From the NCBI GenBank assembly GCA_029862005.1, contig JAOTYD010000026.1:1-46717 (forward strand): a stretch of 46,717 bases of DNA, written 5' to 3'. The stretch's first letter is position 1, and each line of letters begins with the position of its first letter. The notes beneath the pieces were generated by a model. That model did not search any database, was not told the origin of the DNA, and saw nothing but the letters and a program-made list of their open reading frames with translations. The DNA comes from Gammaproteobacteria bacterium (GTDB lineage Bacteria > Pseudomonadota > Gammaproteobacteria > GCA-001735895). The position numbers and the translations under genes are program-made. Positions 13,849 to 46,717 of this stretch are shown here, piece after piece.

Positions 13849-14667
13849 ATGAGTCAGCCAGCCAACAAAGCAATGGCGGAAACGCTGCTGTTTGAAAACC
13901 TGCCTTACGAGGTTGATGGCGGGATCGCCAGCCGCGCTTCGATCGGGCTGATCGTATTGGCCACCGACTACACCATCGAGCACGAGTGGCGCCAGGTTTT
14001 TGCCGGGCTTGACGGGATTGCGCTCTACCAGACCAGGATTCACAACGAAGACCTGATAACACCCGAATCGCTGCGCGCGATGGGGCCTCGTATTGTCGAA
14101 TGCGCGCGCATCATAACGCCCGATACACCGCTAGACGTGATTGCCTACGGCTGTACCTCGGCGTCGATGGCGATCGGCGAGGAGGGGGTTTTTGCCAACA
14201 TCAGGCAGGCCAGGCCCGACGTCAAATGCACCACGCCGATTACTGCCGCTTTTGCCGCTTTCGATGCGTTCGGGGCGAGTCGTATCGGTGTCCTGACCCC
14301 ATACCCGGCCGATGTCAACCGGATCGTTGCTGACTACATTACCGCGCGCGGATTCGAGGTCCCGGTATTCGGCTCCTTCAACTCGGATCGCGATACCGTC
14401 GTCGCCCGAATCACGCCGCAGTCGATAGAGCAGGGCGTGCGCGAAATCATCAAGCATGGCGAAGTCGATGCAATCTTTGTTTCCTGCACCTCGGTGCGAC
14501 TCATGCAGGTCTGTGCCGATCTCGAAAAAAACCTCGATATTCCGCTGACATCTTCAAACCATGCGATGGCCTGGCATGCCTTGCGACTGGCGGGGATCGA
14601 CGACAAGCTCGGTCTCTATGGGCGACTTTATGAATTGCCGTTGCCTGCAGAATCGACCCGTAAATAG
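13849..14667 (+). CDS. Asp/Glu racemase superfamily protein (maleate isomerase / arylmalonate decarboxylase / EutA-like)
   Basis: This 272-residue protein has two catalytic-type cysteines in the family positions: VIAYGCTSASMAIGEE (N-terminal half) and IFVSCTSVRLMQVC (C-terminal half), with FGASRIGVLTPYPADVNR between them. This layout fits maleate cis-trans isomerase, arylmalonate decarboxylase and the EutA proteins of ectoine use, rather than classic glutamate racemase (usual short GG motif absent). The start has a GAGAGGG Shine-Dalgarno 7-9 bases upstream. No other ectoine-degradation genes are adjacent, so EutA is only one option. Divergent from a DMT permease. Confidence 0.82.
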   Translation: MSQPANKAMAETLLFENLPYEVDGGIASRASIGLIVLATDYTIEHEWRQVFAGLDGIALYQTRIHNEDLITPESLRAMGPRIVECARIITPDTPLDVIAYGCTSASMAIGEEGVFANIRQARPDVKCTTPITAAFAAFDAFGASRIGVLTPYPADVNRIVADYITARGFEVPVFGSFNSDRDTVVARITPQSIEQGVREIIKHGEVDAIFVSCTSVRLMQVCADLEKNLDIPLTSSNHAMAWHALRLAGIDDKLGLYGRLYELPLPAESTRK

Positions 14668-18883: not shown

Positions 18884-20413
18884 TTAGGTAGCGGGCGCGC
18901 CACCCTCGTTGCTGCGTCGTTCAATAAAGGCTTCCAATTCGTCACGGCGTGCCTGGTCCAGCGCCGGTGCATCAAATTCCTGCAGGATTTGCTTCCAGAT
19001 ACCGTTCGCACGCTGCGTCGCGGTCCTGGCACCGCTATCGGTCCACTGGCCGAAATTGCTCCAGTCTGATACCAGTGGCTCGTAAAATGCGGTTTGATAG
19101 CGATCCATGGTGTGCTGGCAACCGAAAAAATGACCGCCAGGTTCGACACTGGCAATCGCCTCGTAGGCGAGTTCCTCAGGATCGCTGTTAAGTGGCTCGA
19201 AAATCTCCGCGAAGATTTGCAGCATTTCGATATCGAGGATGAATTTTTCCATCGAGCCGGTGAGACCGCCTTCCAGCCAACCAGCTGCGTGCACCATCAT
19301 GTTGACACCACCGAGCACACTGCCCCAGGCCGACATCAGGTATTCATACACAGCCTGTTCATCCGGGGCATTGGACGCGGTGGCCGCGGAGCCTCGCCAC
19401 GGCAGACCGATATGCCGCGCCAACTGGCCGGCACCGAAAGCCGCCTGCACGAATTCGGGAGTGCCGAAGGCAGGAGAACCTGATTTCATATCGACATTCG
19501 AGGTAAAGGAACCGTAAATCACCGGCGCGCCGGGACTTACAGCCTGGGCCAACGTGATTCCGGCAAGTGCCTCGGCATGCTGCAGCACCAGTGCGCCGGG
19601 CATGGTCACCGGGGCCATCGCGCCGGCGAGCGTGAACGGCGTGATCACCGATACCTGGCCGGCCTTTGCAAAATCGATAATGCCCTGGCACATCGGCACG
19701 TCGAGTTGCCGAGGTGAATTTGTGTTGATTACGGTGTAGCACCAGGGTTTTGCCTCGAATTCCGACTCGTTGAGACCATAGGCGATACGGGTCATCGCAA
19801 ACGCATCTTCAACCTGGGCCGAGCCCCTTGCAAAAATAAAAAAAGGTTTGCGGCTCAGACTGAGCTGGCTTTCAGTGACCCGGAAATGGCGCAGGTGCAC
19901 CGGGATATCCTGTGACTCGACGTTGGGTGATTGCAGGTGCATCACGTCGAAGTGCTCGCTTAGCTTGATGATGTTACGTGTATCCTCGAGGGTTGCCGGG
20001 CGCTTGCCACGATCGAGATCGGAAATATGTGGTGCGCCACCAACTGAAACGAAACTAATATTATCTCCACCCATGATGACGTCGAACTCGGGCGTCCTGC
20101 CATGTAACACGAACTCACCCGGTGCCGATTCCAGGGCCGCGGCGACCAGCGCGCGGTCAATCTTTACCATTTGTGAATCCGCGTCGACGCTGGCACCGGC
20201 CTGTTTGAAATACTGCCGTGCTGCGTCGTTTAGTACCTTGATGCCGAGTTCCTCTATAACACGCAATGCCGTATCGTGGATCGCTTCGAGCCGATCGTTG
20301 CTAAAGGCCGGTTGCTTGAGCAGGGGATTTTTTAAATTGCGGTAATTAACCTTGCGCTGATGCGAGGTGTCGGCCACGCCATGATGCCGCCGCCCCTTGG
20401 GTCTTCTGCTCAT
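18884..20413 (-). CDS. MttB-family (trimethylamine/betaine:corrinoid) methyltransferase, non-pyrrolysine type
   Basis: The 509-residue TIM-barrel protein is typical of the MttB superfamily: NDRLEAIHDTALRVIEELGI, VSVGGAPHISDLDRGKRPAT, AMAPVTMPGALVLQHAEALA, GAPVIYGSFTSNVDMKSGSP and the C-terminal EPGGHFFGCQHTMDRYQTAF. The frame has no internal TAG, so it lacks the pyrrolysine of true trimethylamine methyltransferase. Non-Pyl members move methyl groups from betaines (glycine betaine, proline betaine, carnitine) to a corrinoid protein. No corrinoid protein or RamA-like activase is present in the window, which is odd. It is co-transcribed with the TetR gene (ATGA overlap). Confidence 0.9.
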   Translation of the reverse strand: MSRRPKGRRHHGVADTSHQRKVNYRNLKNPLLKQPAFSNDRLEAIHDTALRVIEELGIKVLNDAARQYFKQAGASVDADSQMVKIDRALVAAALESAPGEFVLHGRTPEFDVIMGGDNISFVSVGGAPHISDLDRGKRPATLEDTRNIIKLSEHFDVMHLQSPNVESQDIPVHLRHFRVTESQLSLSRKPFFIFARGSAQVEDAFAMTRIAYGLNESEFEAKPWCYTVINTNSPRQLDVPMCQGIIDFAKAGQVSVITPFTLAGAMAPVTMPGALVLQHAEALAGITLAQAVSPGAPVIYGSFTSNVDMKSGSPAFGTPEFVQAAFGAGQLARHIGLPWRGSAATASNAPDEQAVYEYLMSAWGSVLGGVNMMVHAAGWLEGGLTGSMEKFILDIEMLQIFAEIFEPLNSDPEELAYEAIASVEPGGHFFGCQHTMDRYQTAFYEPLVSDWSNFGQWTDSGARTATQRANGIWKQILQEFDAPALDQARRDELEAFIERRSNEGGAPAT

Positions 20414-21081
20414 GGTAATTTGTCTCCGTAGGTCTCGAGAATGTAGTTACGAAAGTTTTCAGTATCCGACGCTTTGAGTTGCTGGCCGGTAAAACAAACG
20501 AAATAGGCTTCGGTATAAGCCAGCCTTGTTGCCAGGGTTTCCTTTACCTCGAGTGCGTAAAATCCGATCTGGGAAAAGTAGAGTACGCGTGCGCGAATCA
20601 GGGCCTCTGGCATTGCATAACCAAAGCGGATGAAAAATTCACGTAGTGATGCGATTCGAGCTTCATCCTCGATATCCACCATGCTGCGGACGGTATCTGA
20701 ACGCCGGGCCCATTCCCGTAACGCGAGGTCGAGTCTCGGATCGAACAGAGTGGCATCGATGCAGGTTTCAAAGAAACGAAAGATGCCCTCCGCGAGGCTG
20801 GCGGCATGGGTTACCGATTCGGTAATGGCCCTGGTATTCTTGTCCTTCCAGTAGCTCACAAGCGCATCGATCAGATCTTCCCGGTTCTCGAAATGCCAGT
20901 AAAAGCTACCGCGGGTTACGCCTAGGTCCTCGGCCAGTCGCGTGATGCGAACCGCATCGATTCCTTCTGCCACGAAAATATCGAGTGCTGTCAGCAACCA
21001 GTCGACACGCTGCAACTGCTTGCGTTCCGGACTCGTGATTCCGCGATTGGCGATTTCTTCGAGCAGGCTGGCGTCGGACAT
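20410..21081 (-). CDS. TetR/AcrR family regulator of the methyltransferase and oxidase genes
   Basis: About 223 residues. The N-terminal helix-turn-helix is VDWLLTALDIFVAEGIDAVR followed by RLAEDLGVTRGSFYWHFENR, a textbook TetR DNA-binding domain. The C-terminal ligand domain includes FEAKFF-free helices ending YTEAYFVCFTGQQ. The start at 21081 (MSDAS) is preferred over ATG 21093 because TATGGAATCAATA gives a Shine-Dalgarno and because the upstream ATG lies inside a palindromic operator. The gene precedes the MttB-like gene (4-base overlap) and is divergent from the cupin and oxidase. It probably represses both directions until a substrate-derived ligand binds. Confidence 0.93.
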   Translation of the reverse strand: MSDASLLEEIANRGITSPERKQLQRVDWLLTALDIFVAEGIDAVRITRLAEDLGVTRGSFYWHFENREDLIDALVSYWKDKNTRAITESVTHAASLAEGIFRFFETCIDATLFDPRLDLALREWARRSDTVRSMVDIEDEARIASLREFFIRFGYAMPEALIRARVLYFSQIGFYALEVKETLATRLAYTEAYFVCFTGQQLKASDTENFRNYILETYGDKLP

Positions 21082-21090
21082 TATTGATTC

Positions 21091-21106
21091 CATACAGTTA
21101 TGTATG
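21091..21106. promoter_or_regulatory. TetR-type operator, site 1
   Basis: CATACA (21091-21096), spacer GTTA, TGTATG (21101-21106) is a perfect inverted repeat immediately upstream of the regulator start at 21081. Its position over the regulator's own leader suits autorepression. Confidence 0.7.
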
Positions 21107-21113
21107 TTTTAAT

Positions 21114-21127
21114 ATACAGAACTGTAT
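21114..21127. promoter_or_regulatory. TetR-type operator, site 2
   Basis: ATACAG (21114-21119), spacer AA, CTGTAT (21122-21127) is an inverted repeat sharing the ATACAG core with site 1. It lies 25 bases before the cupin ATG (21153). The centre-to-centre distance between sites is about 22 bases, two DNA turns, suiting two dimers on one DNA face and control of both directions. Confidence 0.7.
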
Positions 21128-21152
21128 GTTTATTGCAATATGAGAAATCGAT

Positions 21153-21509
21153 ATGGCGAGTAAAAAAACGCCGGTGCGTTTAGAGCGTTTCGATGAGCTT
21201 GAGTTTATGCCGCGTTTCGAATACGGCGAGATGGCGGAGGTGGCAGGGATTTGCAGCGCCGACGACGGCACCGAGCTGGGAACTGGTTGGGGTAAGCTGA
21301 CTCATGCGCGCATTCCGTGGACCATCAAGTATGATGAAGTGCTGACCGTATTTGATGGCGTGCTCAAGTTGCATGCGAACGGTGAGGTGCATGAGCTCAA
21401 AGCGCGGGACTGTATCTGGTTGCCAAAAGGCACCGAATTGACCTATGAAGCCGAATCGGCGTTGATTCATTTTGCGATACATCCGTCCAACTGGCATGAA
21501 GTTGAATGA
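21153..21509 (+). CDS. EutQ-like cupin protein
   Basis: This 118-residue single-domain cupin ends in the EutQ-like pattern: HARIPWTIKYDEVLTVFDGV, LKLHANGEVHELKARDCIWL, PKGTELTYEAESALIHFAIH. In EutQ-type cupins the metal-binding His/Glu set is reduced; here only scattered His residues remain, so catalysis is doubtful. The first gene of the rightward transcript from the TetR-controlled promoter, it overlaps the flavin oxidase (ATGA) and is probably needed with it. Possible roles are binding or sensing of the oxidised product; this is inference. Confidence 0.75.
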   Translation: MASKKTPVRLERFDELEFMPRFEYGEMAEVAGICSADDGTELGTGWGKLTHARIPWTIKYDEVLTVFDGVLKLHANGEVHELKARDCIWLPKGTELTYEAESALIHFAIHPSNWHEVE

Positions 21510-22831
21510 GTATCAAACAGGTTTCTCACCTGCCGGTTAACGACAATACGAACGGATGGAGTCACATCTTGCCGCCGCGCACTCCTCATCCGGCACTGGC
21601 GGGGCCGCAAAAATTCGACTGGGTTGTTGTCGGGGCCGGTTACGCAGGCCTGGCCGCGGCGAGACGACTCGCCGAAAATCGGCCCGACGACTCGATCGCA
21701 TTGCTGGACGCCGGCGAAGTCGGGGAGAATGCCTCGGGGCGCAATTCAGGTTTCGCGATCGACCTCCCGCACGTGGTCGGCAGCTCGATGGACGAACTGG
21801 AGGGTTCGCATCGCTACATGGCACTGGCACGTGCCGCAATCACATACCACGAAACGCAGATCGGTCGCTACGGTATCGATTGCGACTGGAGCCAGCCGGG
21901 TAAATACCAGACCGCGAGCTCAGACCAGGGCGTGCGCGACATGCTCGAACCCTTCGCACGCGAACTCGAAGCACTTGAAGAGCCGTTCACCTGGATCGAA
22001 AAAGCGGATCTTGATAAGCGGCTTGGCACCACGCATTTCAAGGCCGCGGTTTACACCCCGGGCTGCCGGCTGCTGAACCCAGCGGCGCTGGTGCGCGGCC
22101 TCGCCGATAACATGCCCGCTAATGTGACGGTTTACGAGAACACCCCGGTCTTGTCCCTGGACCTTGGTACGGATGTCAAAGTCACCTCGTCTGCAGGCGC
22201 GATCGATGCAAAGCAGTTAATTCTCGGGGTTAATGCATTCGCGGAAAAGTTTGGTTTTTACCAGCGTCGCCTGCTGCCGTTTGCGGCCAATGCCAGTTTG
22301 AGCCGGCAACTGACCGCCGCCGAGCGTGAGGCTATCGGTTGTGAGGATAACTGGGGCGTAACGCCGGCCAATGCATTTGCGTCGATCACGATGCGTTTTA
22401 CCAATGATCACCGCATTCTGATCCGCAATAATATTTACTATAACCCGTCGATGCGGGAAGCCGCTTCATACCAGGCTGAAATTGCGCGCCGCCACAAAAA
22501 ACTATTCGATGAACGTTTTCCGATGCTGCCCGAGGTCAACATGGAGTACACCTGGACCGGTTTTATCTGCCTGTCGCAAAATGGTTCGCCGGGTTTTGGC
22601 CAGCTTGCGGATAACGTCTATACCTCGGTGTGTCAGAACGCGGTCGGTGTTACCAAGGGGACGGTGGGCGGCATGCTGGCTGCCGATATGGCCTGCGGGG
22701 TCGACAACGAACTGATTGGTTACATGCAAAGCCTGGGTGAACCCAACTTGCTGCCGATACGTCCTTTTCTCGGTATCGGGGTCAGGGCTCGTTTGGCCTG
22801 GGAATTGTGGAAGGCCCGCAAAGAGGTCTAG
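21506..22831 (+). CDS. FAD-dependent oxidoreductase, DAO family (amine/N-methyl amino acid oxidase-like)
   Basis: The 441-residue flavoprotein has the N-terminal dinucleotide motif WVVVGAGYAGLAAARRLAEN, the acidic beta2 end ALLDAGEVGENASGRNSGFA, and the C-terminal TWTGFICLSQNGSPGFGQL. It resembles gamma-glutamylputrescine oxidase and sarcosine/dimethylglycine oxidase-type enzymes that oxidise a C-N bond to an imine. Being coupled to the cupin and divergent from an MttB-like methyltransferase, it may take an N-methylated amine after one methyl group has been removed. The last codons overlap the end of the convergent PhyH gene by four bases. Confidence 0.9.
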   Translation: MSIKQVSHLPVNDNTNGWSHILPPRTPHPALAGPQKFDWVVVGAGYAGLAAARRLAENRPDDSIALLDAGEVGENASGRNSGFAIDLPHVVGSSMDELEGSHRYMALARAAITYHETQIGRYGIDCDWSQPGKYQTASSDQGVRDMLEPFARELEALEEPFTWIEKADLDKRLGTTHFKAAVYTPGCRLLNPAALVRGLADNMPANVTVYENTPVLSLDLGTDVKVTSSAGAIDAKQLILGVNAFAEKFGFYQRRLLPFAANASLSRQLTAAEREAIGCEDNWGVTPANAFASITMRFTNDHRILIRNNIYYNPSMREAASYQAEIARRHKKLFDERFPMLPEVNMEYTWTGFICLSQNGSPGFGQLADNVYTSVCQNAVGVTKGTVGGMLAADMACGVDNELIGYMQSLGEPNLLPIRPFLGIGVRARLAWELWKARKEV

Positions 22832-23727
22832 TGATCTTCACGCCACAATATGGGAAACCAGTCGGCCCGCATCTTGTCGCCGTGCTGCATTCCATGATCG
22901 ACATAGGGTGGCGAAATCTCACCCGGACGTTCGCAGTAGGTAACGTCGTCACCCAGCCAGCGCGTTGAAAACGCGCGGCGCCTGTCCTTGACGACGGTAT
23001 CACCAGTCCCGTGCAGGGTGCGAAAATCGAACACGATGGCATCGCCCGGCGCGAGCGACCAGGCGGCGATATCATACTGTTCCCGGTGCGCATCGATGTC
23101 CGGCACCGGCTCAAGCTTTTCACCGGGTTGATCATCGTTGAACGCGCTACCGTCTTCAAATACGCGTGGGTAAAACAGCTGCTTCCATCGATGTGATCCC
23201 CTGACGAACCGCACCGCCACGTCGGCATCGGCATGGTCCAGTGACACGTAAACACTCGCCGTTTTGCATCCATCGATGCAGTAATAGGGCAGATCCTGGT
23301 GCCACGGGGTGGCGCGTTGCGTACCTGCGGCCTTCATGAACGCATGATCGTGAAAGAACTGTGCATATTGGGTGTCCATGAACTGGCCCGCGATCGACGC
23401 AGCGCAAGAGTGCGCAATGTAATCGAGGTATTCTGGGATTAGTTGCCAGTTGCAATAGCTGTCAAAAAATCGGCCGGGTTCCCCAGCGGGGTTGCTTTCG
23501 CAGGGAAAGGCAAACTGCTGTGGATTGTCGAGGTTGCGCTGCAGCCCTTTGCACAGCGTCTCAACCCATTCGGTAAATACACCGTGCAGTAACACAACCC
23601 CGTCCTGCCGGAAACGCTCGATATCATCCGCTTCGGCGGTGAAGGCGGTTTGGCCCCCGGTATCAACCACTATCCCCGGTTTGTGCCAGTCGACCGTTGT
23701 TGCGTTGAACCCCTTGGTATCTTGCAT
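22828..23727 (-). CDS. Phytanoyl-CoA dioxygenase (PhyH) family oxygenase 1
   Basis: This 299-residue Fe(II)/2OG oxygenase has the metal pair in TPWHQDLPYYCIDGCK (H143, D145), distal His239 in DFRTLHGTGDTVV, and Arg in RRAFSTRWLGDDVTY for 2OG. It shares WLGDDVTY and PWHQD with the second PhyH at 40466, but the two are clearly diverged. Full length. Bacterial PhyH enzymes hydroxylate small acids, ectoine, betaines or secondary metabolites; the substrate is not known here. Its gene is convergent with the flavin oxidase and divergent from the DMT permease operon. Confidence 0.88.
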   Translation of the reverse strand: MQDTKGFNATTVDWHKPGIVVDTGGQTAFTAEADDIERFRQDGVVLLHGVFTEWVETLCKGLQRNLDNPQQFAFPCESNPAGEPGRFFDSYCNWQLIPEYLDYIAHSCAASIAGQFMDTQYAQFFHDHAFMKAAGTQRATPWHQDLPYYCIDGCKTASVYVSLDHADADVAVRFVRGSHRWKQLFYPRVFEDGSAFNDDQPGEKLEPVPDIDAHREQYDIAAWSLAPGDAIVFDFRTLHGTGDTVVKDRRRAFSTRWLGDDVTYCERPGEISPPYVDHGMQHGDKMRADWFPILWREDH

Positions 23728-23855: not shown

Positions 23856-24773
23856 ATGTCCAAAGTGCTTGCGGCCAGGCTCGAGAAGACCAACATCAGC
23901 TATGTTCAGGGTGTCATACTGGTCCTGATGGCGGGCGTTTTCTGGTCGTCGATGGGTCTCGGCGTTCGGATGATCGAGCAGGCCAATGTCTGGCAGATCC
24001 TGTTTTTCCGTTCGATCGCGCTGTCGATATTCCTGTTTTGTATCATCAGCGTCCGGTCCGGATACAAGCCTTTTGCGGTGATCAGGAAATCCGGGATTGC
24101 CGGTATAATCGGTGGCCTCGGATTGGTGTTTGCCTTTGCCGGTGGCATCTACGCGATTCAGACCACGACGGTGGCGAACGCGATGTTCCTGTTTGCATCG
24201 GCGCCTTTTCTGGCAGCCGTTCTCGGCTGGATAATACTGCGCGAACAGGTGCGCAAGGCAACCTGGTTCGCTATGATTTTCGCATCCCTCGGTATTGCCG
24301 TCATGGTCATCGACGGGATCTCCGCCGGACAGGCGGCCGGCAACCTGACTGCCTTGCTGTCCGCGCTCGGATTCGCCGTGTTCACGATTGCGTTGCGCTG
24401 GGGCAAGCTCGAGGACATGCTGCCGGCCGTGTTCCTGGCGGGTATTTTTGCGATGATCACCGCGGCCGTGGTTTGCGAAGTGCAGGGCCACGGTTTTACG
24501 GTGCCGCGCAATGATATATTGATCGCGGTGGCGTTGGGCGTTTTCCAGGTGGGCCTCGGCCTGACCGTTTATACCCTCGGATCGCGGGTGGTACCAGCGG
24601 CTGAACTCGCGCTATTGTCGATGACTGAAGTGCTGTTGGGCCCGTTCTGGGTGTGGATTTTCCTCGGTGAAACCGCAAGTCTCTATTCGCTCGGAGGCGG
24701 CCTGATCCTGATGCTCGCGATCGCCGCTAATGCGCTCAGTGGCCTGCGTCGCAAACCGGTTCCGGTCATCTGA
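23856..24773 (+). CDS. EamA/DMT-superfamily permease
   Basis: The 305-residue protein has ten hydrophobic segments in two EamA domains. The first begins YVQGVILVLMAGVFWSSMGL; the second includes AALLSALGF-like helices and AELALLSMTEVLLGPFWVWI, the signature C-terminal helix pair. The ATG overlaps nothing upstream, but its stop overlaps the malonyl-CoA synthetase start (ATGA at 24773), so permease, synthetase and amidase form one operon. This suggests uptake, or export, of the compound handled by those two enzymes, which is inference. Confidence 0.92.
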   Translation: MSKVLAARLEKTNISYVQGVILVLMAGVFWSSMGLGVRMIEQANVWQILFFRSIALSIFLFCIISVRSGYKPFAVIRKSGIAGIIGGLGLVFAFAGGIYAIQTTTVANAMFLFASAPFLAAVLGWIILREQVRKATWFAMIFASLGIAVMVIDGISAGQAAGNLTALLSALGFAVFTIALRWGKLEDMLPAVFLAGIFAMITAAVVCEVQGHGFTVPRNDILIAVALGVFQVGLGLTVYTLGSRVVPAAELALLSMTEVLLGPFWVWIFLGETASLYSLGGGLILMLAIAANALSGLRRKPVPVI

Positions 24774-26263
24774 TGGCTGCAAATCACTTATTCGATGGCT
24801 TGCTGTCCGGTCGCACGATAGATTCACGCAGGTTGCTCGATGTGCCTGGTGAGCGAGACTGGTCCTATGCCGACCTGGTGGAACTCTCCGGCAAACTCGC
24901 TCATCTGCTGCTGGAGCAGAACGTCAAACCCGGGGATCGCGTTATGGTGCAGGTTCAGAAATCGCCCGAGGCGATCGCACTTTACCTTGCAACCATTCGC
25001 GCCGGAGCGGTATTCCTGCCGCTGAACACTGCTTATACCCGGGCCGAGGTAGGGTACTTTCTGCAAGATGCCGAGCCCGCCGTTTTCGTTTGTGATAGTT
25101 CGCGCGAGGCAGACTACGACGAAATCGAGGCCAGGGTGTGGACGCTTGACAGCGACGCTAGTGGCAGCCTGCTGCAGGCCGCCTGGGACATGCCGGCGGC
25201 GTTTGATAATGTTGCGCGAGAATCCCAGGATCTCGCCGCGATTCTGTATACCTCCGGGACCACTGGTTTATCCAAGGGTGCGATGTTAAGTCACGATAAC
25301 CTGCTGTCGAATGCATTGACGTTAGTTGATTACTGGCGTTTTACCGCTGACGACGTTTTGCTGCACGCGCTGCCCATTTTTCACACCCACGGTCTGTTTG
25401 TTGCTACCAATGTGATCCTCATTGCCGGGGCGTCGATGATCCTCCTGCCGCGCTTCGATGTCGATCAAATGATCGCGCAGTTGCCTGCAGCGACCACCCT
25501 GATGGGGGTACCGACCTTTTATACACGCCTGCTGGCGGATGATCGTTTCGATCGCGACCTGGTCGCGCATATGCGCCTGTTCGTTTCCGGTAGTGCCCCG
25601 ATGCTTGCCGAAACCCACATCCAGTTCGAGGAACGTACCGGGCATCGAATCCTGGAACGTTACGGCATGACCGAGACCAACATGAATACTTCCAATCCCT
25701 ACGACGGCGAGCGTCGTGTCGGCAGTGTCGGGTTTCCGTTACCCGGGGTTGAAATCAGGATTAGCGATCCGGAAACAGGCGCCGAGCTGTCCGCTGGTGA
25801 AACCGGCATGATCGAAGTGCGTGGGCCGAATGTTTTTCTGGGCTATTGGCGCAAGCCTGAAAAAACTGCGCTGGAATTGCGCAACAACGGATTCTTCATC
25901 AGCGGTGACCTCGGCATGATTGATGCCGATGGTTACGTGCATATACTCGGGCGCGAGAAGGACCTGGTCATTTCCGGCGGCTACAACATTTATCCGAAGC
26001 AGATCGAAACCGAGATCGACGCGCTCGATGGAGTGCTCGAATCCGCGGTGTTCGGCATTGCGCATCCCGACCTTGGCGAGGCCGTCGCGGCTGCTGTGGT
26101 ACCGGTTACAGGCACGGAGCTGGACGCCGAGAATTTGATCCAGGCCCTGGAACCAACGCTGGCGCGCTTCAAGTTACCGCGCCAGGTATTCATAGTCGAT
26201 GAACTGCCACGTAACGCGATGGGCAAGGTGCAGAAGAATATATTGCGAGCCAACTATGGATGA
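24773..26263 (+). CDS. matB: Malonyl-CoA synthetase (MatB-like acyl-CoA synthetase)
   Basis: It probably activates malonate with ATP and CoA to malonyl-CoA through an acyl-adenylate. The 496-residue protein has the P-loop LYTSGTTGLSKGAMLSHDNL, LLHALPIFHTHGLFVATNVI, the A5 core LERYGMTETNMNTSNPYDGE, the hinge SGDLGMIDADGYVHILGRE and the catalytic lysine end NAMGKVQKNIL. HALPIFHTHGLF and GMTETNMNTSNPYDG are strong MatB markers and separate it from general fatty-acid or acetate synthetases; methylmalonate is another possible substrate. Overlaps both neighbours (ATGA before, 8 bases after), so the three are translationally coupled. Confidence 0.85.
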   Translation: MAANHLFDGLLSGRTIDSRRLLDVPGERDWSYADLVELSGKLAHLLLEQNVKPGDRVMVQVQKSPEAIALYLATIRAGAVFLPLNTAYTRAEVGYFLQDAEPAVFVCDSSREADYDEIEARVWTLDSDASGSLLQAAWDMPAAFDNVARESQDLAAILYTSGTTGLSKGAMLSHDNLLSNALTLVDYWRFTADDVLLHALPIFHTHGLFVATNVILIAGASMILLPRFDVDQMIAQLPAATTLMGVPTFYTRLLADDRFDRDLVAHMRLFVSGSAPMLAETHIQFEERTGHRILERYGMTETNMNTSNPYDGERRVGSVGFPLPGVEIRISDPETGAELSAGETGMIEVRGPNVFLGYWRKPEKTALELRNNGFFISGDLGMIDADGYVHILGREKDLVISGGYNIYPKQIETEIDALDGVLESAVFGIAHPDLGEAVAAAVVPVTGTELDAENLIQALEPTLARFKLPRQVFIVDELPRNAMGKVQKNILRANYG

Positions 26264-27644
26264 ACTGATCAAAAAAAGCGCCTGCAAAATAGTGGAGCTG
26301 CTTAAAACTGGAGCAGTCAGTATCGACGATACGCTCGATGCGCTAGAAGCGCACATCGAAAAGGTCGATTCCGAGATCAACGCGCTGCCGACGCTTTGCT
26401 TCGAACGCGCCCGGGAAGCTGCCCGGCAGGGTGATCGTAAAGATTCGGTGCTGGCTGGCATCCCGATTGCGATCAAGGATCTGACGGACGTCGCCGGGGT
26501 CAGAACAACCTATGGTTCGAAGCTCTACGAAAACCACGTGCCCGAACAATCCGATATCATGGTCGAGCGGATTGAGGCCAACGGCGGCATCATATACGCG
26601 AAGTCGAACACACCCGAGTTCGGCACCGGTGGCAACACTTTTAACGATGTATTTGGCGCGACCCTCAATCCCCATGACTTAACGCGCAGCGCGGGCGGCT
26701 CATCCGGTGGTGCGGCAGCGGCATTGGCGAGCGGCAGCGCCTGGCTCGCCCAGGGATCTGATCTTGGCGGATCCCTGCGCACGCCGGCCGCCTTTTGCGG
26801 TGTTACCAGCTTGCGCCCATCGCCGGGATTAGTTACGACGAATCCTGGCTTGCAGCCGTTCAATGTATACTCACAAAAAGGTCCAATGGCACGCAACATC
26901 GCTGATCTCGCGCTTTTCGCCGATGCGTTGGCCGGTCCAAGTTCGGTCGCGGGTTTGTCCAAGCCCCACGTCATTGACGAATTCCGAAGTGCCGCGGGGC
27001 GTCCACAGTCGCCGTTAAAAATAGCCTGTAGTGAGGATCTCGGTATTACACAGGTTTCGCCCGAGGTGGTCGCGGTCTTTGATGCTGCCATTGCGATGCT
27101 CGAACGGGAACAGGTTGGTATCGAAAACGCGCATCCCGATCTCAGCATGATGGATGCCGCGTTCGATGTGCCGCGCGCGCTGGACTACGCGCAGTCATTT
27201 GGCGCCGACCTCGACGACACGCGTGCTATTCTCAAACCCGAAGTCGTCTGGAATATCGAGAAAGGTCTTGGTCTCGGCGCAGACGAGATCCGCCAGTCAA
27301 TGGATGCGCAGGGACAGATGTTTGCCAACGCGTCGCAATTCATGCTGGATTACGATTTACTGATCTGCCCGGCCACTATCCTGCCCGCCTATCCGGTCGA
27401 AGAACGCTACCCCGGGTACTCCGACGGGCTCGAGTACTCAGAGTACTATCGTTGGCTGGCGATCTGCTGGGCAATTACCGCGACTACGCTGCCGGTGATT
27501 ACGCTGCCCTGCGGCAAAACCGAATCAGGATTGCCCGTCGGTTTGCAGCTGATTGGTAAAGCTCACGGTGAGCTGGAGCTGTTTGCATTTGCAAGCTACC
27601 TGGAACAGGTATTCGCCTGGGACCCGCTGCAGGCAATTCCCTGA
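26256..27644 (+). CDS. Amidase signature family hydrolase
   Basis: It probably hydrolyses an amide or ureide. The 462-residue protein has the catalytic set of the amidase signature family: Lys74 (IAIKDLTDVAG), cis-Ser in AGGSSGGAAAALASGSA (149/150) and nucleophile Ser173 (DLGGSLRTPAAF). The start at 26256 overlaps the matB end by eight bases; an earlier in-frame start lies inside matB. The coupling suggests that the amidase releases malonate or a similar acid for the synthetase, for example from a malonamate-type or ureidomalonate-type compound. The family cannot be assigned to one substrate by sequence. Convergent, with 8 bases between, with the next oxidoreductase. Confidence 0.9.
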   Translation: MDELIKKSACKIVELLKTGAVSIDDTLDALEAHIEKVDSEINALPTLCFERAREAARQGDRKDSVLAGIPIAIKDLTDVAGVRTTYGSKLYENHVPEQSDIMVERIEANGGIIYAKSNTPEFGTGGNTFNDVFGATLNPHDLTRSAGGSSGGAAAALASGSAWLAQGSDLGGSLRTPAAFCGVTSLRPSPGLVTTNPGLQPFNVYSQKGPMARNIADLALFADALAGPSSVAGLSKPHVIDEFRSAAGRPQSPLKIACSEDLGITQVSPEVVAVFDAAIAMLEREQVGIENAHPDLSMMDAAFDVPRALDYAQSFGADLDDTRAILKPEVVWNIEKGLGLGADEIRQSMDAQGQMFANASQFMLDYDLLICPATILPAYPVEERYPGYSDGLEYSEYYRWLAICWAITATTLPVITLPCGKTESGLPVGLQLIGKAHGELELFAFASYLEQVFAWDPLQAIP

Positions 27645-31924: not shown

Positions 31925-32950
31925 ATGAATACAATGTCTGAAGAAGCGATAGTCGACCTGCGCAGCGATACCGTAACCCGGCCCAGCGCAGGCATGTACC
32001 AGGCGATCCTGGATGCGGCCGTTGGCGATGATGTTTACGGTGAAGACGAGACCGTGAACCGGCTCGAAGCGACTGCGGCACAAATGCTGGGAAAAGAGGC
32101 AGGTCTGTTTTTAAGCAGTGCGACCCAGGCTAACCTGGCAGCAATGCTCGCACATAACGCCAGGGGCGAGGAAATCCTGCTCGGTGATCAATACCATGTT
32201 TATGTTGCCGAGGCTGGTGGTACCTCTGCGCTCGGCGGTATCGTCCTGCATCCACTGTTGACGGATGAGTCCGGTGGGCTCTCCCTGCAGCAGGTACTCG
32301 ACGCGATAAAGGATGACGATCCGCATAATCCGATTACGCGCACCCTCGCGCTCGAGAACACCGTGTCGGGACAGGTTCAGGATCCCGCGCACCATCGCCA
32401 GCTTGCCGAAGCGGTGCGCGCGCAGGGCCTGAAAGTACACCTCGACGGCGCGCGGCTTATGAATGCCGCAGTTGCGTTGGAAATGCCCACGGCCGATATC
32501 GTTGAGCCTTTCGATAGCGTCATGCTGTGCCTGTCGAAGGGCCTTGGTGCGCCGGTCGGAGCGATGCTTTGTGGGCCCGCCGCGTTTATCAAAACGGCGC
32601 GTCGCCTGCGTAAACAGCTGGGTGGCGGCATGCGTCAGGCCGGCGTGCTGGCTGCCTGCGGTTTATATGCGCTAGAGCACAACATTGCCCGACTTGCCGA
32701 CGACCACGACTCGGCCCGGCAACTCGCCGAGGGAATTGCCGGCATGGGGACGCTGCCGGTCAGGCACCATACCAACATGGTATTTATCGAACCCGAGGCT
32801 AAAGATATCGAGCCTTTACGACAACACCTCGAGGCACAGCGAATCCTGATCGGTGAGCAGAAACCACCTATCCGCCTGGTCACGCATCTTGACATCGACA
32901 GCGGTGGCATCGATCGGGCGATCACGGCCATCCATTCTTTTTACGGGTAG
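31925..32950 (+). CDS. Threonine aldolase family enzyme (low specificity, beta-eliminating lyase family)
   Basis: The PLP enzyme splits beta-hydroxy amino acids such as L-threonine or L-allo-threonine into glycine and an aldehyde. The 341-residue protein begins with VDLRSDTVTRPSAGMYQAIL, then GDDVYGEDETVNRLEATAAQ, KVHLDGARLMNAAVAL (cofactor Asp) and LCLSKGLGAPVGAMLCGP with the Schiff-base Lys205. Two starts are close: ATG 31925 and ATG 31934; neither has a strong Shine-Dalgarno. It is the first gene of a rightward operon with the DddP-like protein (four bases between genes). With the upstream serine operon it links to glycine/serine one-carbon metabolism. Confidence 0.9.
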   Translation: MNTMSEEAIVDLRSDTVTRPSAGMYQAILDAAVGDDVYGEDETVNRLEATAAQMLGKEAGLFLSSATQANLAAMLAHNARGEEILLGDQYHVYVAEAGGTSALGGIVLHPLLTDESGGLSLQQVLDAIKDDDPHNPITRTLALENTVSGQVQDPAHHRQLAEAVRAQGLKVHLDGARLMNAAVALEMPTADIVEPFDSVMLCLSKGLGAPVGAMLCGPAAFIKTARRLRKQLGGGMRQAGVLAACGLYALEHNIARLADDHDSARQLAEGIAGMGTLPVRHHTNMVFIEPEAKDIEPLRQHLEAQRILIGEQKPPIRLVTHLDIDSGGIDRAITAIHSFYG

Positions 32951-32954
32951 CAAA

Positions 32955-34187
32955 ATGAGCGCAAATCCTGTCGACAAGCTGGTGTTTGATGATAACTGGA
33001 GCGATCTAAGCGCTTTTCGCGAAATGCCGCAGATCAATCTTGAGCGCATGGCACGCTACCGGATGGGTCGGCTCAAACAGCAGCTCGAACTGCATGATGC
33101 GGCCATGTGTATCCTGGTGAATCCGATCAGTCTGCGCTACGCGGTCGACTATCGCAGTTACATGCTGTTCCAGTCACACATACCGACCGTTTACCTGTTT
33201 ATACCCCAGGATGGTCCGACGGTATTTTACGGTTGCTATTACGATGTGCCGCAGGTCGATGATTTTCGACCCGGCCGACCACATGCTTTCTTCGACGGTG
33301 GCACTAATATCGACGAAGCCGCTCGAGGTCTCGCCGAGGATGTTGTCGCCTATCTCGATGAAATCGGCAGCGCCAATCGACGCGTCGCAATCGAATACGT
33401 GAATCCGTCGGTAACCCAGGCGCTGGAGGCCCGTGGAATCGAAGTGATCGACGGGGTTCGTATCGCCGAAACGGCGCGCCTGATCAAGTCTGAAGACGAG
33501 ATTGCCTGCATGCGCTGGGCCATCGCGGTTGCCGAGCATGGCGCCGCAATGGTCAAGAAAGCGCTGCGGCCCGGGGTTACCGAACTGCAGCTCTGGGGTT
33601 TGCTCAACTACACTAATGTCGCGAATAACGGGGACTGGCACGAGGGGCGCATGCTCTCCTCTGGGCCCCGTATAAATCCGTGGCTGCAAGAGGCCAGCGA
33701 ACGCAGGATAGAATCGGGTGACCTGGTTGGTTTCGACACCGACATGATTGGTCCCTTTGGTTACTTCGTGGATTTATCACGAACCTTTCATTGCGGACCG
33801 GACAAACCCACGCGGCGCCAGAAAGAAATCTACCGCATGGCGGTTGATGAAGTCGAACATAACTTAACGCTGATCTACCCCGGCATGACCCTGAAGGAAA
33901 TGCAGCAACGGGCCTATCCGGTACCCGAGGAATGCCAGCAGAACGCCTACCCCTGCATCATGCATGCGGTCGGGATGTGCGACGAGTATCCGCAGGCCAA
34001 GCACCTGTTTCGCCAGAAGAATCCGTATGACTGCGCGCTCGAGACGGGTATGGTCGTCTGTGTCGAAAGTTACATGGGTCCCGAGGGCGAGCGCGACGGT
34101 GTCAAGATCGAGCAGCAGGTGCTGATCACCGAAGATGGATACGAGCCGCTCACCACGTACCCGTGGGAACAAGCGCTGCTCGATTGA
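32955..34187 (+). CDS. M24 metallopeptidase-family protein closely resembling the DMSP lyase DddP
   Basis: The 410-residue protein has the creatinase/prolidase fold. Spacing of key residues follows DddP as I recall it: metal ligands D261 and D263 (GFDTDMIG), D273 (FVDLSRTF), H337, E371 (VVCVES) and E386 (KIEQQVLI), plus the DddP-specific Tyr332 and Asp343 in YPCIMHAVGMCDEYP. GRMLSSGPRINPWLQEA and YEPLTTYPWEQALL are also DddP-like. DddP cleaves dimethylsulfoniopropionate to dimethyl sulfide and acrylate. The relative DoeA (ectoine hydrolase) fits less well. No acrylate gene is near. Starts at 32955, four bases after the aldolase stop. Confidence 0.75.
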   Translation: MSANPVDKLVFDDNWSDLSAFREMPQINLERMARYRMGRLKQQLELHDAAMCILVNPISLRYAVDYRSYMLFQSHIPTVYLFIPQDGPTVFYGCYYDVPQVDDFRPGRPHAFFDGGTNIDEAARGLAEDVVAYLDEIGSANRRVAIEYVNPSVTQALEARGIEVIDGVRIAETARLIKSEDEIACMRWAIAVAEHGAAMVKKALRPGVTELQLWGLLNYTNVANNGDWHEGRMLSSGPRINPWLQEASERRIESGDLVGFDTDMIGPFGYFVDLSRTFHCGPDKPTRRQKEIYRMAVDEVEHNLTLIYPGMTLKEMQQRAYPVPEECQQNAYPCIMHAVGMCDEYPQAKHLFRQKNPYDCALETGMVVCVESYMGPEGERDGVKIEQQVLITEDGYEPLTTYPWEQALLD

Positions 34188-45289: not shown

Positions 45290-46717
45290 TCAGATTTGTG
45301 CGGGTTCCAGCTGCGGCCTGGCCAGCAGCATATCGGCGGCGCGCTCGGCCATCATGATAACCGCGGCGTTCGGATTGCCGCTGAGCTGGCCTGGGAAGGC
45401 CGAGGCATCGACTACAAGCAGGCCCTCTACTCCGCGAACACGATATTCCGCATCGAGTACCGCTTGCGCATCATCATCGGCGCCGATGCGGCAGGTCGAT
45501 ACCGGGTGATGCCCGGTGGTGATGTGCCGGCGTAAACCGGCCGCCATCGCCGATCTGGATTTTACCTGCGGGCCCAACGCGATTTCATTACCGACGATCT
45601 TACTGATGGCGGGCTGTGACGTCAGCTCGCGGATATGTTCAGCCCCGTCGATCAGGGTCTCGACGTCTTTCTGCTGGCTGAAATACCCTGGATCGATTAA
45701 CGGAGGTTCGGCTGGATTAGTCGAGGCAAGACGGATACTGCCCCGGCTTTCGGGTCGCAGCAGGTTGATATCAAACTGTAGGCCCGGGGTCGCCGTTTTG
45801 CCGCGTGCCAGGATGGCGCGGCCCGGTTTGAGAATATTTTGCAGGCTCCAGCCCGCACCCCCGGCACCCTCCCTGACAACCATCGGGGTACAGTAGACCT
45901 CGAGGTCGGGTAATTCGCCGCCATCGAAGGCATGAAACAGCGCGGTGCTCCAGAATGGGCCGGTCGCGGGACCGGTTTTACCGAACCAGTACTGCATCGC
46001 CAGCGAGATGGCGCGATCGAGGCGCTGGTAGCGGGCAAAGCTCAGGCTGCTGTCGTTGATTTCGAAGGTGAGCGGCATATTGGGATGATCCTGCAGCGCT
46101 TCACCGACGCCGCTTAGATCAACGATTGGCTCGATACCGTGTCGCCGCAGGTGATCGGCGGGTCCGACGCCGGACAGCATCAAAAGTTTCGGTGACTCGA
46201 ATGCGCCGAGGCAGGAAACGATTTCTCGCTCGGCGTTTATCGTTTGTGGTCCGGCGTTACCTTCGATCAGCAGCCCGCTCGCCCGATTACCCGAGAATTC
46301 GACGCGCAACACGCGGGTACCGGTGAGAATGGTCAAATTGGCGGGTCGTTGCTGCAGGTAGGTGGCGGAGGTCGACTGTCGCTGGCCGTTGAAGACCGTG
46401 GCATCGAAGCGGCCCACGCCAATCTGTGATGCGCCATTGAAATCATGATTGAGCGGGGCACCTGCCTGTTGCGCCGCTTCGACAAACATCTGGCTGACGG
46501 GACAGTAATTTTCGGCCGGTGAAATTTTCAAGGGTCCGGTTTGACCATGGAATTCTGAATTGCGGTGCGGAGCGGTTTCAGATTTCTTGAAATACGGCAA
46601 CACGTCGGCGTATCTCCAGCCGGGGATTCCCAGGTCATGCCAGCGATCGAAGTCGAGGCGGTTACCGCGCACGTAGATCAATCCGTTCATCAACGACGTG
46701 CCACCGAGACCCTTACC
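45290..46717 (-). CDS. GMC-family oxidoreductase (choline/alcohol dehydrogenase-like), N-terminus cut by window
   Basis: The frame is open to the window edge; upstream of the visible part it reads GKGLGGTSLMNGLIYVRGN, the GMC signature 1 region, so about 80 N-terminal residues including the FAD-binding GxGxxG are missing. About 475 residues are seen: SCLGAFESPKLLMLSGVGPA is signature 2, and TGHHPVSTCRIG plus NPNAAVIMMAERAADMLL carry the active-site His pair and FAD end. Relatives oxidise choline, alcohols or sugars. No betaine aldehyde dehydrogenase is seen, so choline dehydrogenase is not assured. Confidence 0.9.
   Translation of the reverse strand, partial: GKGLGGTSLMNGLIYVRGNRLDFDRWHDLGIPGWRYADVLPYFKKSETAPHRNSEFHGQTGPLKISPAENYCPVSQMFVEAAQQAGAPLNHDFNGASQIGVGRFDATVFNGQRQSTSATYLQQRPANLTILTGTRVLRVEFSGNRASGLLIEGNAGPQTINAEREIVSCLGAFESPKLLMLSGVGPADHLRRHGIEPIVDLSGVGEALQDHPNMPLTFEINDSSLSFARYQRLDRAISLAMQYWFGKTGPATGPFWSTALFHAFDGGELPDLEVYCTPMVVREGAGGAGWSLQNILKPGRAILARGKTATPGLQFDINLLRPESRGSIRLASTNPAEPPLIDPGYFSQQKDVETLIDGAEHIRELTSQPAISKIVGNEIALGPQVKSRSAMAAGLRRHITTGHHPVSTCRIGADDDAQAVLDAEYRVRGVEGLLVVDASAFPGQLSGNPNAAVIMMAERAADMLLARPQLEPAQI

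Follow-up and report, generated by a model that had tools for sequence, protein, structure and literature searches.

We favour, with some reserve, the reading that a four-gene locus at positions 18,884 to 22,831 of contig JAOTYD010000026.1, from a gammaproteobacterium of the GCA-001735895 lineage (assembly GCA_029862005.1, 3.99 Mb), is a regulated peripheral unit, or "spoke", of a corrinoid-dependent N-demethylation system. The entire contig (C26; 46,717 nucleotides) is referred to as the window. The locus joins genes for an MttB-superfamily methyltransferase and a TetR-family regulator on one strand to genes for an EutQ-like cupin and a DAO-fold flavin oxidase on the other. The observations behind this reading are: the gene content; the conservation of the four genes as a set; an operator motif between the two arms; one protein with two B12 domains in a genome with ten MttB genes; the co-occurrence of this MtgC-type protein with MttB; and the alternative oxidases found beside related MttBs. 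A repressor encoded within the set probably switches all four neighbouring genes together, and the module likely lets certain bacteria remove methyl groups from a betaine-like compound.

An initial annotation, made from the letters of the window, had MttB-like and TetR genes leaving in one direction and cupin and DAO oxidase genes in the other. All four open reading frames were recovered at the expected coordinates and their Pfam families agree with it. The genes form two overlapping pairs (4 bp each for MttB/TetR and cupin/DAO), which diverge across a 59-bp gap between the first start codons:

18884..20413, minus strand: non-pyrrolysine MttB-superfamily methyltransferase, 509 amino acids (PF06253, 647 bits)
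20410..21093, minus strand: TetR-family regulator, 227 amino acids from the first ATG, with a second in-frame ATG at codon 5 (PF00440, 44.5 bits)
21092..21105: predicted operator half 1, a palindrome overlapping the first TetR start codon, kept in relatives
21111..21138, minus strand: weak sigma-70-like promoter match, TTGCAA-16-TATATT, towards TetR-MttB (consensus match only)
21114..21127: predicted operator half 2, the palindrome ATACAG-N2-CTGTAT, kept in relatives
21153..21509, plus strand: EutQ-like single-domain cupin, 118 amino acids (PF06249, 43.4 bits, profile 68-151)
21506..22831, plus strand: DAO-fold FAD-dependent oxidase, 441 amino acids, its start codon overlapping the cupin stop codon (PF01266, 155 bits)

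The grouping hinged on whether the four genes occur together elsewhere, and they do. When a DAO alignment was scanned against a collection of 84,980 species and the best 80 loci were kept as a sample, 23 of these carried complete MttB, TetR, cupin and DAO genes in the same divergent order, 7 in the genus of the window and 16 outside it. The latter are mostly alphaproteobacterial (Roseovarius, Pelagimonas, Ascidiaceihabitans, Neomegalonema, Rhodobacteraceae, Rhizobiaceae, Hyphomicrobiales, Geminicoccaceae, Rhodovibrionaceae and an unplaced alphaproteobacterium), together with one gammaproteobacterium of the Granulosicoccaceae. The other loci had MttB and cupin without TetR (3), MttB and TetR without a detected cupin (3), TetR and cupin (5), the cupin only (10), TetR only (1) or none of the other three genes (35); less than 3.2 kb of upstream sequence was available for 15 of the 80, including 6 of these 35. 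Among 31 genomes of the genus (the order set comprised 41), an MttB orthologue of at least 75% identity was found in 25 (four of them partial) and a DAO orthologue of at least 69% (some partial) in 18, all within those 25. It might be argued that the arrangement is inherited local synteny without functional meaning, as unrelated neighbours (HtrA, NHL and EutA-like genes) also hold their order inside the genus. We consider this very unlikely: outside the genus the flanks differ while the four genes and the operator persist.

The same annotation had pointed to two ATACAG-type palindromes two DNA turns apart between the arms; these are indeed present, 22 bp from centre to centre, and are conserved alongside the TetR gene, whose product matches TetR_N (PF00440) at 44.5 bits against a cut-off of 24. 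The palindrome at 21114-21127 is perfect, and the one at 21092-21105 has one mismatch to ATACAG-N2-CTGTAT, becomes a perfect CATACA-N4-TGTATG when the flanks are included, and overlaps the earliest possible TetR start codon (21091-21093). The window by itself gives the motif little weight: with two mismatches allowed there were three matches where 0.87 would be expected, a number reached in 8 of 100 shuffles. In the whole 3.99-Mb assembly the exact sequence ATACANNNNTGTAT occurs at only these two places (the reversed control occurs at one, with a match on each strand), and this genome-wide exact scan did not find it in the corrinoid hub cluster described below. Most of the genus loci printed carry both halves at the same spacing, including three that are without cupin and DAO genes (L053, L054 and L057); the second half is degenerate in L031. 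The TetR//cupin or TetR//DAO interval was short enough for an operator test in 31 of the 80 named-genome loci, and 30 of these intervals hold CATACA-N4-TGTATG with no more than 2 mismatches in its 12 positions (each p < 0.05 against 200 same-segment shuffles; L129 fails), although the 31 segments are not independent, several being from close relatives.

Twelve loci at which MttB is linked to a dimethylglycine dehydrogenase (DMGDH)-type gene were scanned for the same motif, which was found with one mismatch in L194 (beside a TetR gene) and with two in L196. Single weak matches of this kind mean little, because four occurrences with up to two mismatches were found in 133,876 bases of other MttB loci; the TetRs of the DMGDH-linked loci look like another subgroup. 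The sigma-70-like match lying across operator half 2 agrees with the consensus at 9 of 12 positions (1 found, 0.3 expected). The comparative evidence points to the palindromes and TetR as a predicted self-regulating local repressor system.

The methyltransferase matches PF06253 at 647.4 bits (cut-off 25) over profile positions 3-500 of 500, and the pyrrolysine trimethylamine methyltransferase model TIGR02369 at 338.8 bits, below its cut-off of 525. As its reading frame has no in-frame stop, it is a non-pyrrolysine member of the family, just as had been annotated. In phmmer comparisons it scored 323.5 bits against PDB 4yyc and 187 bits against the pyrrolysine MttB of PDB 7xcl. The pyrrolysine of 7xcl aligned with Ala344 in the phmmer alignment, but this column moves by one between alignments; an argument from the residue at this column was dropped, as MtgB reads L there in one alignment and G in another.

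No PF02310, PF02607 or RACo place was found on the window contig. The initial annotation had left open whether a corrinoid partner acts from elsewhere or this MttB works differently. The search it proposed, for a corrinoid protein and a RamA-type activase, returned both from a single cluster on contig C1. Profile searches of the assembly gave ten PF06253 genes (on C1, C10, C11, C12, C17, C26, C27 (two), C28 and C31), three PF02310 places, one PF02607 place and one RACo_C_ter place; the PF02607 place is also the best PF02310 place, and both B12 domains and the activase converge in locus L015 (C1:156000-175999), while the remaining two PF02310 places are in frames of 507 and 580 amino acids. The following genes were located in this cluster:

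L015:8113-8826: corrinoid protein with both B12 domains
L015:8863-9477: DUF1638 protein (Pfam)
L015:9465-9779: Virulence_fact protein (Pfam)
L015:11323-12234: Pterin_bind protein, above cut-off as a methyl-tetrahydrofolate:corrinoid methyltransferase
L015:12265-14286: RACo activase
L015:15652-17262, other strand: MttB, with an AraC-type regulator

The full order is corrinoid protein, DUF1638, Virulence_fact, DUF5981, MTHFR, Pterin_bind and RACo, with the DUF1638 and Virulence_fact genes lying between the corrinoid protein and MTHFR-like genes, followed by the AraC-type regulator and MttB on the opposite strand. The stretch L015:8113-14286 thus has the make-up of an MtgC/MtgD hub, that is, a stand-alone corrinoid protein linked to pterin, MTHFR-like, DUF1638 and RACo genes, and the two things that an MttB-superfamily enzyme requires of its genome, a corrinoid protein and a reductive activase, are both encoded. 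Among the 31 genus genomes, the corrinoid protein is nearly full length and 89-100% identical in 27 and partial in G003 and G024; it had no match at E 1e-10 in G004 and G018, several assemblies of the genus set being incomplete. A full-length MetH was not seen in the genome, because none of the three B12-binding frames exceeds 580 amino acids; there are six PF02574 places, and the pattern would fit a split methionine synthase sharing MtgC, by analogy with Ruegeria. Apparently, one corrinoid protein encoded outside the window serves ten MttB-family enzymes.

Co-occurrence across genomes leads in the same direction. The MtgC-type protein was searched for in genomes representing 21 of the 29 loci with MttB at the DAO locus (all but seven genus loci and L121) and 21 of the 51 lacking it, and the exclusion of L136 left 41 genomes for comparison. 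All 20 genomes with MttB at the oxidase locus had a match of at least 70% identity, as did 9 of the 21 without it, one of these nine matches containing an internal stop (Fisher's exact P = 5e-5, with no correction for kinship). In the other 12 genomes, which include Brucella/Ochrobactrum, Pectobacterium and Dickeya, the best match was 33-37% identical, and in 11 of them it lay in a frame of more than 1,200 amino acids, the length of MetH. These counts bear on the idea that the window MttB is corrinoid-free and performs different chemistry, which the lack of corrinoid and activase genes on contig C26 might seem to favour. Given that other parts of the genome encode a conserved corrinoid protein and an activase, and given the MtgC found in every searched carrier with MttB at the locus, the strong PF06253 match and the conserved pocket residues described next, we regard this idea as scarcely credible; of the two options left open by the annotation, a partner encoded elsewhere is the one that the data support.

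Docking has placed Y94, N199, R309, H345 and F353 of MtgB near glycine betaine (PMC6855144), and their counterparts in the window MttB are G125, N230, R340, H375 and G383; the asparagine, arginine and histidine are kept and both aromatic residues are replaced by glycine. N230, R340 and H375 are identical in all window-type sequences checked, in which the position of MtgB Tyr94 is always Gly, Ala or Ser. The hub-linked MttB on C1 and the MttB on C28 retain Tyr, Asn, Arg and His, as does Sinorhizobium 4yyc, and to judge from these residues they are better candidates for glycine betaine than the window enzyme. The pocket suggests that the latter may act on a betaine which carries a carboxylate but is not glycine betaine, its ammonium group being different and perhaps larger.

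MttBs related to that of the window are found beside other oxidases. A phylum-wide draw of 398 genomes contained 21, including this one, with an MttB at E <= 1e-150. In 12 wider stretches taken from the other genomes, a frame of 801-856 amino acids adjoins MttB in 10 (one small frame away in L203), and the five of these frames that were run against Pfam (L192, L196, L199, L200 and L201) all have the DAO-FAO_M-GCV_T architecture of the dimethylglycine dehydrogenase type; the MttB neighbourhood of L193 and L195 was not resolved by the open reading frame caller. Sarcosine oxidase alpha subunits are encoded near L195 and L200. In the tree, the MttBs of 10 of the 12 stretches fall, together with the cupin-DAO-linked ones, inside a clade of 45 sequences (support 100/100), eight of them having the 801-815-residue neighbour, while those of L199 and L203 fall just outside it. 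The DAO-linked MttBs had formed one clade in a first tree, in which all but one of the paralogues were from this genome, but their monophyly was rejected once 21 phylum-wide MttBs were added, since the DAO-linked and DMGDH-linked ones then shared the 45-sequence clade. Left out were: from the earlier alignment, the fragmentary or fused frames of L073, L115, L124 and L137 and MttBs that were not resolved, such as those of L079 and L121; from the later tree, MttB_7xcm, parC27b, parC11, parC12 and L124_par, which have long branches or are distant paralogues, and the duplicate L058; and also from the later tree, 7 of the 28 phylum-wide MttB matches from other genomes (L163, L166, L183, L184, L187, L188 and L189).

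Similar pairings occur closer to the window. In this genome a DMGDH-type protein is encoded next to, or one gene away from, each of the MttBs on C10, C11, C27 (second copy) and C28; for C11 and C27 the assignment is by length and start only. Directly after the DAO gene in L079, L081 and L085 there is a frame of 854 amino acids (DAO-GCV_T by Pfam in L079). Three genus loci, with TetR and MttB in place, show apparent traces of a cupin-DAO arm since lost: L053 (G029) and L054 (G017) retain the first four cupin codons (MASK) with a stop two codons on, and L055 (G015) has a stretch resembling DAO residues 395-440 beside TetR. Because MttBs of the same clade adjoin DMGDH-type enzymes and because three genus members carry such remnants, the cupin-DAO pair looks like an alternative second-step oxidase, and the window type of MttB like one that pairs with exchangeable amine oxidases.

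The oxidase itself matches DAO (PF01266) at 155.2 bits (cut-off 27.9), and falls below the cut-offs of the aminophosphonate oxidoreductase model TIGR03329 (131.7 against 632.8 bits) and of the L-pipecolate oxidase AmaA model NF050086 (117 against 600); a Pfam scan found no GCV_T folate domain in it. Searching the sequences of solved structures gave weak matches only (best E 0.0016). The predicted structure (pLDDT 89.7) is closest to glycine oxidase 4ysh (Z 36.8, rmsd 2.5 over 358 residues), and its fold matches, at 11-19% identity, also include L-proline dehydrogenase, dimethylglycine dehydrogenase and monomeric sarcosine oxidase; the modelled fold supports amine oxidation in general rather than one substrate. 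The cupin matches the EutQ cupin family (PF06249) at 43.4 bits against a cut-off of 21, over profile positions 68-151 of 152, and the full-length EutQ acetate kinase model (NF012001) at 46.9 bits, below its cut-off of 193 and in the C-terminal cupin part only. Cupins have classical metal-binding histidine motifs; these are not conserved here, as H110 is the only histidine among the invariant columns of five aligned cupins. That the cupin is a new component, as first annotated, needs qualifying, since EutQ-type cupins beside methylamine oxidation genes were already noted in 2015 (PMC5023230).

Relatives of this oxidase also occur in other company. Among plasmid homologues, those of 57% identity in Tistrella and Paracoccus lie in TetR//EutQ-DAO-TRAP units without MttB, and those of 41-42% identity in Pseudomonas, Cupriavidus and Oceanisphaera lie in Rieske-aldehyde dehydrogenase-FAD-DAO-EutQ operons, two of which have BCCT transporters in view. 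At L059:8065-10738 (G010), a cupin and a 45%-identical DAO have other surroundings, with a carbon-nitrogen hydrolase coming after them. Genes of about 675 amino acids for Oxidored_FMN (NADH:flavin oxidoreductase) proteins are found near the module in L100 (by Pfam) and L079 (by clustering).

One may suppose, then, that the two arms are co-regulated and act on different compounds, MttB on a betaine and cupin-DAO on some unrelated amine that the same food supplies. The TRAP-linked units, the Rieske operons, the carbon-nitrogen hydrolase context of L059 and the genus members keeping MttB without cupin-DAO all speak for this. Nevertheless, the common operator and the fixed divergent order recur in distant bacteria, DMGDH-type enzymes occupy the neighbouring place in related loci, and demethylation would itself fit the Rieske settings; we consider the supposition rather unlikely. 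Several further points weigh against our preferred reading of a demethylation spoke: the pocket residues rest on docking predictions for MtgB (PMC6855144), and the paralogues on C10 and C17 have the same pocket pattern, so the pocket alone cannot single out the module; neither the cupin nor this DAO was found within about 1.5 kb of MttB at 28 loci in the 20 other phylum-wide genomes, the rest of which was not searched, so the MttB-cupin-DAO link is loose outside certain lineages; MttB is retained in genus members missing cupin-DAO; the MtgC counts are uncorrected for kinship; and the 35 DAO loci of the 80 without the other three genes, including those of Brucella/Ochrobactrum relatives without MtgC, indicate that DAO has MttB-independent uses. 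Of the single module first annotated, stepwise N-demethylation fits the neighbourhoods, whereas the unity of the set does not fully stand, MttB and cupin-DAO being separable.

Under the demethylation reading, TetR would hold both divergent promoters shut at the palindromes until the substrate or a product binds. MttB would transfer one methyl group from a carboxylate-bearing quaternary amine (probably a betaine, though not glycine betaine and perhaps larger than it) to Co(I) of the single MtgC-type protein. By homology to the Ruegeria system, the MtgD-like pterin enzyme would pass the methyl group to tetrahydrofolate, the MTHFR-like enzyme would oxidise it, and the RACo-type activase would keep the cobalt active. 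DAO, presumably assisted by the EutQ-like cupin, would oxidise the resulting tertiary or secondary amine, taking the place held by DMGDH-type enzymes beside MttBs of the same clade. A more specific version is possible though doubtful: a hub-and-spoke network with one MtgC hub and ten substrate-specific MttB spokes, in which the window's spoke family swaps the folate-coupled DMGDH for DAO and an EutQ-like cupin without conserved metal-ligand histidines, the cupin handling the imine or formaldehyde. If this were true, the EutQ-like cupin would gain a role outside ethanolamine use.

Further genes in the window lie next to the module:

22828..23727, minus strand: PhyH-type dioxygenase, convergent, an optional neighbour present in some genus loci and absent in others (PF05721, 70 bits)
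23856..24773, plus strand: EamA-family transporter, a frequent genus neighbour of window-type MttB (PF00892)
24773..26263, plus strand: malonyl-CoA-synthase-like ligase, genus neighbour (NF005702, 797 bits, exceeding the cut-off of 558)
26199..27644, plus strand: amidase, genus neighbour (PF01425, 302 bits)

The EamA transporter gene is retained in L053, L054 and L057 despite the missing cupin-DAO, and is directly divergent from MttB in L058; in L053 and L057, the ligase and amidase genes are likewise still beside MttB. A substrate call from neighbours was rejected, as the ligase, amidase, EamA and PhyH genes of the genus and the TRAP, ABC and BCCT transporters elsewhere disagree on the compound; proline betaine, homostachydrine, carnitine and beta-alanine betaine are guesses, none of them preferable, and passages of PMC9842639, PMC12155760 and PMC8604678 hold nothing decisive on the substrate. 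Farther away, the window encodes an EutA/arylmalonate-decarboxylase-like protein (13849-14667; TIGR02990, 216 bits, below the cut-off of 318), which is syntenic across the genus; an M24-family protein (32853-34187) whose score against the DMSP lyase DddP model, 292 bits, does not reach the cut-off of 600; and a GMC oxidoreductase (45290-46693) matched by choline dehydrogenase models below cut-off. A second M24 protein adjoins the MttB on contig C17.

In the open-access PMC literature we found no paper describing a regulated cupin-DAO spoke or this gene set. What the locus offers is an orphan MttB clade with fixed partners, a candidate regulator whose operator can be predicted, and an isolate known by name, Roseovarius albus CECT 7450 (L100), and for these reasons the substrate and the role of the EutQ-like cupin are directly testable.

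Several known systems can be compared with this one. The cupins of Gram-positive methylotrophs likewise stand next to methylated-amine oxidation genes (beside Tmo, Tmd and Mao), where they were proposed to matter, but they belong to other phyla and have other partner enzymes, and their function is only hypothesised in that account (PMC5023230). The window DAO has its domain and best fold matches in common with the glycine oxidase, sarcosine oxidase and dimethylglycine dehydrogenase group, from which it differs by the lack of a GCV_T domain and its low identity. The pyrrolysine MttB (7xcl) is of the same superfamily as the window MttB, which differs by its uninterrupted frame and its TIGR02369 score. 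MtgB (PDB 2qne, 9yce) also belongs to this superfamily; its predicted N199, R309 and H345 are kept, whereas Tyr94 and Phe353 have become Gly125 and Gly383, and the window MttB is on a separate branch of the tree. The closest likeness is to Ruegeria pomeroyi DSS-3, in which glycine betaine demethylation and methionine synthesis both draw on MtgC and MtgD (PMC12478193, PNAS 2025), the GbcAB dioxygenase being another route by which glycine betaine demethylation can start (PMC12478193). Its MtgBCD/split methionine synthase system has, as here, an MtgC-type protein, an MtgD-like protein, an MTHFR-like protein (MetF2), DUF1638, a RamA-type activase and several pfam06253 genes. That study, the main text of which contains neither "cupin" nor "EutQ", concerns glycine betaine and reports pfam06253 genes of open substrate, up to seven per genome; here there are ten, one of them with its own TetR, operator and cupin-DAO arm, and we see the present system as a variant of the aerobic MtgBCD scheme already known.

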